Origin: Brachyspira hampsonii
Lineage (GTDB): Bacteria; Spirochaetota; Brachyspiria; Brachyspirales; Brachyspiraceae
DNA length: 64,000 nucleotides
Assembly: GCF_002214805.1 (NCBI RefSeq)
Contig: NZ_CP019914.1
Span: forward strand, 1,302,001 to 1,366,000
Direction of reading: 5' to 3'
Shown here in pieces: positions 25,356 through 28,384 of this stretch. Each line of letters opens with the position of its first letter. The stretch's first letter is position 1. Position numbers and translations under genes: made by a program. The notes under the pieces were generated by a model. It had not been told where the DNA came from. It searched no databases and saw nothing but the letters and a program-made list of their open reading frames with translations.

Positions 25356-26447
25356 TTAATTATTTAAAAAATTTTTTATATATTTAGTCTGTTCTGTATT
25401 CTTAAGTAAAAAAGCATCATGTCCGTAATTAGATTCTATTTCATGAAATATAGTATTTATATTAGAATGCTGATAAGCAGATACTATCTCTGCTGACTGT
25501 GTACTTGGATAAAGCCAATCCGATATAAAAGATATAACAAGAACTTTTTCTAAATTAATATTCTTTTTATGTTTTATTTTTTTTATTTCATCTTTAACAT
25601 CAAAAAAATCCATAGCTTTGGTAAGATATAAAAAACTATTAGCATCAAATCTTGCGGTAAATTTTTCTCCGTTATAATGAAGATAATTTTCTACTTCAAA
25701 AGAAGGAGTGAAATATTTAACGGCTCTCTTTCTCTTCCTTCCAAATTTCTTTCTCATATACTCTTCGCTCATATATGTAATATGTCCTAGCATTCTAGCC
25801 AAAGCAAGACCTCTGTCAGGAGTAGACATACCATAATATTTTCCGCCGTACCATTCAGTATCTTCGGTTATTGCCTGTCTTGCTATTTCATTCAAAGCTA
25901 TCTGCATAGGCGAATGACTCATAGAGCTCGCTATTACTATTGCTTTTTCCATCATTTGAGGATAAGAAGCTGACCATTGTAATACCTGCATACCGCCCAT
26001 AGAACCACCTGCAACGCAATAGAGTTTATTTATCCCTAAACTATCAATTAATATTTTTTGCACTTTCACCATATCTTTGATTGTGAAAGTAGGGAAATCT
26101 GTACCATAATATGAATTGCTATTCGGTTTTTTAGAAGAAGGTCCTGTTGTTCCGCTGCAGCCTCCTAAAACATTTGAACATATTACAAAATATTTATCTG
26201 TATCTATTGCCTTTTTCTTACCCACAAAATTCTCCCACCAAGAAAGAACATCAGCATCTCCTGTAAAAGCATGGCATACTAGAATAGCATTATCTTTATT
26301 AACATTTAAATGTCCGTTTACAGTATACGCTATAGTCAATTCATTTATTGAAGCTCCATTTTCAAATTTGAAAGGTTTATCATAATTAAAATATTTAATA
26401 TCATTATTTTCATGTTCATTGTTTTTATGTTCTTTTATATTCTTCAT
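25356..26447 (-). CDS. metX: Homoserine O-acetyltransferase
   Basis: The enzyme acetylates homoserine with acetyl-CoA, giving the substrate for MetY. It has 363 residues of alpha/beta-hydrolase fold, with the nucleophile elbow GGSMGG (147-152, Ser149), a catalytic Asp near 310 (FISDW) and His343 (YGHDAF). The first 20 residues are a hydrophilic His/Asn/Lys-rich extension. Specificity for acetyl rather than succinyl donor is presumed from the pairing with metY. It is 61 bp downstream of metY on the same strand, under the same leader control unless the hairpin between them stops transcription. Confidence 0.93.
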   Translation of the reverse strand: MKNIKEHKNNEHENNDIKYFNYDKPFKFENGASINELTIAYTVNGHLNVNKDNAILVCHAFTGDADVLSWWENFVGKKKAIDTDKYFVICSNVLGGCSGTTGPSSKKPNSNSYYGTDFPTFTIKDMVKVQKILIDSLGINKLYCVAGGSMGGMQVLQWSASYPQMMEKAIVIASSMSHSPMQIALNEIARQAITEDTEWYGGKYYGMSTPDRGLALARMLGHITYMSEEYMRKKFGRKRKRAVKYFTPSFEVENYLHYNGEKFTARFDANSFLYLTKAMDFFDVKDEIKKIKHKKNINLEKVLVISFISDWLYPSTQSAEIVSAYQHSNINTIFHEIESNYGHDAFLLKNTEQTKYIKNFLNN

Positions 26448-26508: not shown

Positions 26509-27804
26509 TTATTTATTTGCTATAGTTAAAGCCTCATCTAAATAATAAAGTATATCATCAATATGTTCTATACCTATTGAAAGCCTGATGAAGTTTTTAC
26601 TTATTCCTCCCTTTTTCAATTCTTCTTCAGATAATTGAGAATGCGTAGTAGAAGCAGGATGTGCAACTAAACTTTTAACATCTCCGACATTCACCAAATG
26701 GGAGAATAATTTTATATTATCTATAAATTTAACTGCAGCTTCATATCCGCCTTTTATACCAAATACAACCATTCCTCCAAATTTATCTTTTAAATATTTA
26801 CTTGCTATATTATATGAAGGATCATTTTTAAGTCCAGGATATCTCACCCATTCAACTCTATCATCTTTTTCTAAAAACTCAGCAACTTTTAAAGCATTAG
26901 AGCAATGTCTGTCCATTCTTACTGCTAAAGACTCTGTTCCCTGAATGAATACCCAAGAGTTATCAGGAGAAAGACAAGCACCTAAATTTCTAAGCGGTAC
27001 AGTTCTTACTCTCAAAGTAAATGCTATATTTTTAAGCTCATCTGGTAAATCATAAGCCCATCTTAATCCATGATAATTTGAATCAGGTTGTGAAAATAGA
27101 GGGAATTTATCGCTTTGCCAATTAAAATTGCCGCTGTCAGTGATTATTCCTCCTATAGCACTTCCATGTCCGCCTATCCATTTTGTAAGTGAGTTGATTA
27201 CAATATCTGCACCATGTTTGATAGTCTGCAAAAGATAAGGGGTTGTAAAAGTAGCATCTATAACTAGAGGTATTCCCGCATCATGTGCTATTTTTGCAAC
27301 TGCTTCAATATCTGTAAAATCTAATGAAGGGTTTGAAATTGTTTCTATAAATATTAATTTAGTTTTATCAGTGATAGCCTTAGCAAAATTAGCAGGATCT
27401 TTAGCATCTACAAATTTTGTATTAATTCCAAGTTTAGGAAGTATTGCTGCAAATTGTGAATATGTACCTCCATATACATTGAATGCTGAAACTATTTCAT
27501 CTCCTGCCTCACATATAGTGATTATAGTATAGAATATTGCATTTGTTCCAGATGATACCGCAATGGATGCTTTACCGCCTTCCATAGCAGTGATTCTTTT
27601 TTCTAATACATCTGCGGTAGGATCTCCAAGTCTTGTATAAATATAACCAAGTTCTTTTAAACCAAATAAATCAGCAGCATGTTTTGAATCTCTAAATAAA
27701 TATGAAGTAGTTTTGTATACCGGAACTCCTCTGCTTCCGAATATATCATTAGAATCCTGTCCTGCATGTGCTGCTAATGTTTCAAATTTTAATTCTCTTG
27801 ACAT
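26509..27804 (-). CDS. metY: O-acetylhomoserine sulfhydrylase
   Basis: The PLP enzyme makes homocysteine from O-acetylhomoserine and sulfide. It has 431 residues, typical of MetY and longer than cystathionine gamma-synthase. The PLP lysine is in INSLTKWIGGHG (Lys208), preceded by VIDATFTTPYLL and the GSRGVPVYKTTSYLF N-terminal arm. The ribosome site is AAGGAG. It is preceded by a terminator hairpin and a Met/Cys-rich leader ORF (27831-27965), so it is probably controlled by attenuation. metX follows. Confidence 0.95.
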   Translation of the reverse strand: MSRELKFETLAAHAGQDSNDIFGSRGVPVYKTTSYLFRDSKHAADLFGLKELGYIYTRLGDPTADVLEKRITAMEGGKASIAVSSGTNAIFYTIITICEAGDEIVSAFNVYGGTYSQFAAILPKLGINTKFVDAKDPANFAKAITDKTKLIFIETISNPSLDFTDIEAVAKIAHDAGIPLVIDATFTTPYLLQTIKHGADIVINSLTKWIGGHGSAIGGIITDSGNFNWQSDKFPLFSQPDSNYHGLRWAYDLPDELKNIAFTLRVRTVPLRNLGACLSPDNSWVFIQGTESLAVRMDRHCSNALKVAEFLEKDDRVEWVRYPGLKNDPSYNIASKYLKDKFGGMVVFGIKGGYEAAVKFIDNIKLFSHLVNVGDVKSLVAHPASTTHSQLSEEELKKGGISKNFIRLSIGIEHIDDILYYLDEALTIANK

Positions 27805-27830
27805 CTTTATAATACTCCTTAATAATAAAA

Positions 27831-27863
27831 TAAAAAAGCCGCCAAATAAATTTGACGGCTTTA
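27831..27863 (-). terminator. metY: metY attenuator terminator
   Basis: On the minus strand AAAGCCGTCAAA and TTTGGCGGCTTT form a 12-bp stem (one G-U) with a short AT loop, running into TTTTTTATTTT. It lies between the leader ORF and metY, 27 bp before the metY start. Its 5' arm AGCCGTC (27854-27860) can instead pair with GATGGCT (27896-27902) in the last codons of the leader ORF, giving a mutually exclusive antiterminator. Confidence 0.85.
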
Positions 27864-27887
27864 AAGTACAAAATAAAAAATAAATTG

Positions 27888-27965
27888 TTATTGACAGCCA
27901 TCATTATTAAACATACACATTTGCATGAGGCAAAACATTTTGTTCATAACGATGATTGTTTTCAT
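27888..27965 (-). CDS. Met/Cys-rich leader peptide of metY
   Basis: This is a 25-codon ORF with 6 Met and 3 Cys codons, including the run MFCLMQMCM at codons 10-18. AGGA lies about 10 bases upstream of its ATG (27963-27965). A shorter start at codon 7 is possible. The ORF ends 25 bp before the attenuator stem. If ribosomes stall at the Met/Cys run for lack of charged tRNA, GATGGCT (codons 22-24) stays free to pair with the 5' arm of the terminator and metY is read. If they reach the stop, that segment is covered and the terminator forms. The mechanism is inferred from this geometry. Confidence 0.75.
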   Translation of the reverse strand: MKTIIVMNKMFCLMQMCMFNNDGCQ

Positions 27966-28180
27966 TTACAATATTTCCTAAAATATTTATTTAATAATTA
28001 ACTACAGATTATACAGCAATATAAAATTATTGTCAACAGTAATTAGTTTTATTTTTTTAAGTATTACAATAATTTTAAATAAAACTTGAATTATAATTAA
28101 GATAATTAAATATTCGAGTTAAAACAATAAATATAATATTCAATACATTAAAATCTTATTTAAATTATCATTTCATTTAA

Positions 28181-28384
28181 CGCACGCTAAATCGATTTAT
28201 ATAATAAATTCAAATTGAATTAATAACTAAATTATATTTCTTTAACTACTATGCGTGCGTGTTAATTGCACCATAAATTTAAATAAAACTAGGGTGGGTG
28301 CTTTAAATTTATAATTCGATTAACAAAATAATTGAAGTTAGATTTTAAAAAGAAATTACTAAATATAAAGGGCGGGGTATGTAA
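28181..28384. repeat. Composite intergenic repeat R7 (A-B-C)
   Basis: The A module is 28181-28259 (79 bp, CGCACGCTAAA to TGCGTGCG), the B box is CTAGGGTGGGTGCT (28289-28302) and the C box is AAAGGGCGGGGTATG (28367-28381). It occupies the middle of the gap 27966-28658. The rest of the gap is AT-rich apart from the Rrf2 promoter. Confidence 0.9.

Follow-up and report, generated by a model that had tools for sequence, protein, structure and literature searches.

A putative methionine-specific leader-peptide attenuator upstream of metY-metX in Brachyspira

The metY-metX leader in the window

The DNA analyzed here, which we call the window, is a stretch of 64,000 nucleotides from Brachyspira hampsonii (contig NZ_CP019914.1, positions 1,302,001 to 1,366,000). 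Its minus strand carries, in the order of transcription, a candidate promoter, a Shine-Dalgarno-like site, a short leader ORF (uORF), an intrinsic terminator, metY, and metX (Table 1), the last of which is presumed to be the second gene of a metY-metX operon. The span 27831-27965, singled out in a first-pass annotation, corresponds to the leader without its promoter. We number the pairing segments of the leader RNA 1 to 4, the terminator being formed by 3 and 4.

Table 1. Features of the metY-metX locus, in window coordinates
Feature	Position	Strand	Remark
Candidate promoter, TTGACA-17-TATAAT	28008..28036	-	12/12 consensus matches
Shine-Dalgarno-like site of leader ORF, TTTAGGAAAT	27973..27982	-	contains AGGA
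Leader ORF, 25 codons, MKTIIVMNKMFCLMQMCMFNNDGCQ	27888..27965	-	open in 22/22 metY and 5 metX/metN leaders
Region 1, protector arm, pairs with region 2	27942..27959	-	1:2 helix predicted in 22 metY leaders
ATGCAAATG = Met-Gln-Met, leader peptide core	27918..27926	-	ATGCAAA in all aligned leaders, including metX and metN
Region 2, antiterminator segment TGATGGCT, last uORF codons	27896..27903	-	GGCTG invariant
Region 3, AGCCGTCA, 5' arm of the terminator, can also pair with region 2	27853..27860	-	invariant in all aligned leaders
Intrinsic terminator (3:4)	27825..27862	-	12-bp stem, 4-nt loop, T-rich tail
metY, O-acetylhomoserine sulfhydrylase	26509..27804	-	TIGR01326, 602 bits, cut-off 495
metX, homoserine O-acetyltransferase	25356..26447	-	NF001209, 444 bits, cut-off 331

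The composition of the leader ORF is as first annotated: 25 codons that include 6 Met (counting the start) and 3 Cys. The window holds 331 ORFs that start with ATG and run to 15-45 codons, and no other one of them has at least 9 Met plus Cys codons, a comparison made post hoc; the binomial probability of at least 5 Met among 24 codons is 4e-4 for this leader. The terminator had been called a perfect 12-bp stem; the 12 pairs are there (27862..27835, stem and loop), with 5 G-C and one G-U among them, so that the stem is not perfect, and they are followed by TTTATTTTAT. Our terminator search returned one terminator-like site, versus 0.1 expected in shuffles. Upstream of the other metY leaders we likewise find TTGACA- or TTGAAA-type -35 and TATAAT-like -10 elements, and nearly all leaders have AGGA or GGA 5' of the uORF start.

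Conservation and reuse of the leader within Brachyspira

MetY-like matches occur in all 26 Brachyspira genomes, 22 of which hold close full-length orthologues (84-100% identity). We found the leader upstream of every one of these 22 intact metY genes, each with a metX motif downstream on the same strand, and both the ORF and its alternative pairing with the terminator are retained in all 22; the conservation that had been proposed as a check is thus borne out, and it extends to further genes, metX and metN (below). One genome (locus L078, G017:C19:43500-48000) holds a metY remnant with internal stops, whose leader and terminator have decayed too. The metY leader peptides have the core C-L-M-Q in common and vary by clade in the remainder, as in the pilosicoli-like group, exemplified by MNNAVIMNMLCLMQMQKIVTAA.

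The geometry of the ORF points indirectly to its translation. Every leader measured contains 2-6 Met codons past the start and before region 2, and the stretch from the start to Met-Gln, which measures 36, 39, 42, 54, or 57 nt, is free of in-frame stops; as the in-frame copy of the motif was picked for this measurement, what is informative is the lack of stops and the 3-nt steps. The distance from Met-Gln to GGCTG (17-30 nt) is not bound to the frame, and the stop codon lies 7, 9, or 12 nt past the start of GGCTG in every leader measured. In three leaders (L012, L014, and L016), one nucleotide is missing downstream of MQM, and the peptide ends in MMAV, not NDGC; despite this frameshift, the RNA of their antiterminator segment, ATGATGGCTG, is intact. 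The codon-position signal of the uORF is weak, with 10, 4, and 11 extra states at positions 1, 2, and 3 (p = 0.15). From the geometry we infer that the leader ORF is translated.

We sought further copies in the genus by pattern search and with a covariance model built from the metY leaders. A leader with a different Met-rich peptide (VNFIMIVINMLCNSMQMTMVCSIDGCEV and relatives) precedes metN-metI-ldh-metQ in three genomes, and another precedes a lone metX in two genomes without this metY (LNKTAFVNNRISRNHFSMMQMRFEDGCIV and a relative, with a TTG start). The genes are named by NCBIfam matches (metN, metI, L-lactate dehydrogenase, metQ, and metX), those of metN, metI, and metQ falling below the curated cut-offs. 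Inspection of the regions upstream of metN in the remaining Brachyspira genomes revealed no such leader. Across the three gene contexts, Met-rich peptides are kept and little other sequence is shared: Met-Gln (ATGCAAA) occurs unchanged in each of the 27 intact leaders, embedded in CLMQM before metY, NSMQM or KSMQM before metN, and SMMQM before metX, and one metY leader (L018) has MQK instead of MQM. Another 11 weak model matches (E about 0.005-0.1) were set aside, as they resemble ordinary terminators or unrelated DNA.

In the three metN loci (L073, L075, and L077), the gene between metI and metQ belongs to the L-lactate dehydrogenase family, with TIGR01771 over its cut-off for L073. Separately, short runs rich in C or in G (such as CACCCGCCC, GGGTGGG, and GGGCGGGG) recur in AT-rich intergenic DNA, both at window positions 28280-28380 and, in several genomes, before metN (L158, L159, L162, and L165).

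Three predicted competing helices in the leader RNA

The end of the uORF had been proposed to pair with the 5' arm of the terminator, and we find this pairing between TGATGGCT (27903..27896) and AGCCGTCA (27860..27853), with 8 pairs including one G-U. For the window leader, 2 of 1,000 shuffles of the upstream sequence could pair as stably with the terminator arm; of the 13 leaders put to this test, 12 gave 0-16 such shuffles per 1,000 and one, N77, gave 82. The attenuation logic suggested earlier is upheld by comparison and folding, with the addition of a third element that had been missed, the protector arm of the 1:2 helix.

We folded the leaders in manually defined states, in which the ribosome was represented by a mask of 15 nt beginning at the stalled codon or of 12 nt beginning at the stop. 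The naked full-length leader is predicted to adopt 1:2 and 3:4 in 21 of the 22 metY leaders (the exception is L018). For a ribosome that has stalled at the Met core before arm 4 is made, 2:3 is predicted in all 22, as well as in the five metN and metX leaders, and with the ribosome at the stop codon 3:4 is predicted in all 22. Once arm 4 is present, the minimum-energy fold of the stalled state is the terminator in 21 of 22, so read-through must be kinetic, with 2:3 forming before its competitor. In the trp attenuator, the antiterminator is generally held to form first. The folding also indicates that, without translation, many transcripts favor 2:3 over 1:2 until arm 4 emerges.

The 5' part of every one of the 22 metY leaders is predicted to fold into the 1:2 helix. 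The aligned cells of this helix are paired in 88.1% of cases, versus at most 57.3% when the register is slid, and two pairs are changed on both sides, a two-sided cell number reached in 7 of 500 shuffles. In the five pilosicoli-like leaders, the 1:2 register is shifted by three columns to give 8 bp of different sequence; the helix is also predicted in metX leaders, and its arm is poorly defined in metN leaders. In most leaders, ATGCAAATG is predicted to pair in the inner hairpin of 1:2. The 3:4 helix is paired in 94.1% of cells, versus at most 56.6% slid, with no two-sided changes among the 22 metY leaders. For 2:3, the figures are 92.6% versus at most 61.9% in the metY leaders and 91.4% when the metN and metX leaders are added. 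Covariation of this antiterminator pairing, named earlier as something to look for, did not emerge: we sought two-sided changes in the metY, metN, and metX leaders and found none, the changes being one-sided, from U-G to C-G. On the aligned sequences, the support for 2:3 is its invariance and its position, and region 3 is apparently constrained by the terminator as well.

Probable methionine sensing, rival readings, and known leaders

We consider it likely that the leader is a ribosome-controlled transcription attenuator that senses the supply of methionine for translation, and that the leaders form a methionine-specific leader-peptide attenuator family, which is kept in Brachyspira and very probably functional. 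RNA polymerase would start at the consensus promoter and a ribosome would translate the Met-rich leader. With ample Met-tRNA, the ribosome would reach the stop, 7-12 nt past the start of GGCTG, and cover region 2, leaving 3:4 to pair and transcription to stop before metY. When Met-tRNA is scarce, the ribosome would stall in the Met cluster (M-Q-M) and break the 1:2 protector helix, and the freed region 2 would bind region 3 while region 4 has yet to emerge, allowing the polymerase to continue into metY-metX. Without translation, 1:2 would re-form and the terminator would act. Uncharged tRNA-Met is the presumable cause of the stall, and read-through would be expected to rise on methionine limitation.

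The signal had been read as methionine together with cysteine. Methionine stands, as the codon common to the leaders, and cysteine as a general joint signal is rejected because the lone-metX leaders have a single Cys, in region 2, and the peptide proper contains one in the pilosicoli-like metY leaders; of the Cys codons in the window leader, one lies inside region 2 and the others are not conserved throughout. Plain codon starvation does not explain the invariant Gln of Met-Gln. In addition, the Leu codon 5' of Met-Gln is CTC in 20 of 22 metY leaders, a codon that makes up 1.3% of Leu codons in the window. CTC and Met-Gln may be held constant by base pairing of the RNA within or close to the inner hairpin, by the slow reading of a codon, or by arrest through the nascent chain.

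The last of these leads to a reading that we regard as unlikely, namely that the Met-Gln-Met nascent chain stalls the ribosome through a small molecule or a state of the exit tunnel and drives the same RNA switch. Such an arrest peptide would account for a Met-Gln that never changes while the flanking residues differ among the metY, metN, and metX leaders and the remaining Met codons come and go. However, the pairing of ATGCAAATG in the inner hairpin could conserve it as RNA, L018 departs from the motif with its MQK, and nearly all leaders have several extra Met codons beside the core, as control by tRNA charging predicts. We give a similarly low probability to a genus-specific methionine regulon in which Met-Gln-Met arrest senses methionine or a derivative, alongside tRNA-Met charging or in its place.

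It is quite improbable that a trans-acting factor or a ligand-binding RNA (a riboswitch or a protein site) governs the terminator, with the uORF incidental or serving to keep the RNA open. The strong constraint on the RNA (invariant GGCTG and AGCCGTCA), the rare CTC in the core, and the weak codon-position signal would agree with it, but no Rfam leader or riboswitch family matches at its gathering score (only sub-threshold matches were obtained, such as Phe_leader with 17.8 bits versus 55), the start and frame to Met-Gln are kept over length changes in multiples of 3 nt, the stop keeps its place after GGCTG, and Met-rich peptides recur in three gene contexts with little other shared sequence. 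A constitutive partial terminator next to a chance Met-rich ORF, without regulation, would fit the many short ORFs that AT-rich DNA gives (331 in the window); we hold this to be highly improbable given the conservation in 22 of 22 loci, the predicted 1:2 and 2:3 alternatives, the shuffle tests, and the recurrence at three kinds of methionine operon.

In our judgement, the attenuator favored here would be a methionine-specific variant of classical leader-peptide attenuation. The classical trp, his, leu, thr, ilv, and phe attenuators of Proteobacteria comprise a leader peptide with codons for the amino acid that the pathway makes, alternative 1:2, 2:3, and 3:4 pairings, and an intrinsic terminator. 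Like trp-type attenuators, the Brachyspira leader has a promoter, an ORF with pathway codons, alternative helices, and a terminator before the first gene; unlike them, it uses Met codons with an invariant Met-Gln and resides in a spirochaete. S-box (SAM-I) and T-box RNAs likewise control methionine genes by termination at the RNA level in other bacteria, but bind a ligand or tRNA without a translated ORF. We detected no SAM-I riboswitch (RF00162) in the 26 Brachyspira genomes, the window included, and no T-box (RF00230) in the same genomes; positive controls were detected for both.

Another related case is the predicted metL leader before metNIQ in Streptomyces lividans (PMC8079986), a short ORF with Met and Cys codons that also precedes a methionine ABC importer; its transcription is reported to be leaderless and to lack a typical intrinsic terminator, and its peptide, MSTTSDRTPATEATTTPGARCMCRRMCAF, has no evident likeness to those of Brachyspira. 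A survey of Actinobacteria (PMC1262725) noted methionine operons without conserved RNA structure upstream. The Cys leader peptides of Actinobacteria (PMC1262725) and the cysS uORF motif of Rhodobacterales (PMC8632094) likewise use codons of sulfur amino acids, but Cys leader systems have runs of Cys, not Met, and the mycobacterial ones lack conserved terminator hairpins. According to a 2010 survey (PMC2965389), leader-peptide systems had, to its authors' knowledge, been shown only in Proteobacteria and Actinobacteria, to which it added Firmicutes. We found no relevant report on attenuators of Brachyspira or other spirochaetes in a literature search that covered a minority of subscription papers.

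The core pattern, searched in 393 genomes of the phylum, gave true matches in Brachyspira only; the other matches look like chance, and the rate outside the genus is of the same order of magnitude as that of a reversed control pattern. Of 32 loci with metY-like genes, almost all from other lineages, none showed a Met-rich uORF in the upstream region scanned. The leader covariance models were run within Brachyspira only.

If the attenuation reading is correct, the range of classical leader-peptide attenuation would grow by an amino acid, methionine, and by a bacterial group, the spirochaetes. The regulon would be small (metYX, metX, and metNIQ) and lie within one genus, with the switch at different operons in different species, so that its evolution could be traced. 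As a signal, methionine poses a difficulty, since ATG also serves as the initiator codon, and the leader raises the question of how a shortage of elongator tRNA is separated from one of initiator tRNA.

A different uORF, with a strong Shine-Dalgarno sequence, lies before a second MetY-like gene at two loci (L023 and L024; G003:C187 and G001:C1:2205163). Its last residues are SMMMRVCAR or SMMMRVVAR, and a GCGCG hairpin spans its stop. When 31 genomes of the order were searched by pattern, it was returned from those two loci only; it is possibly a second leader type.
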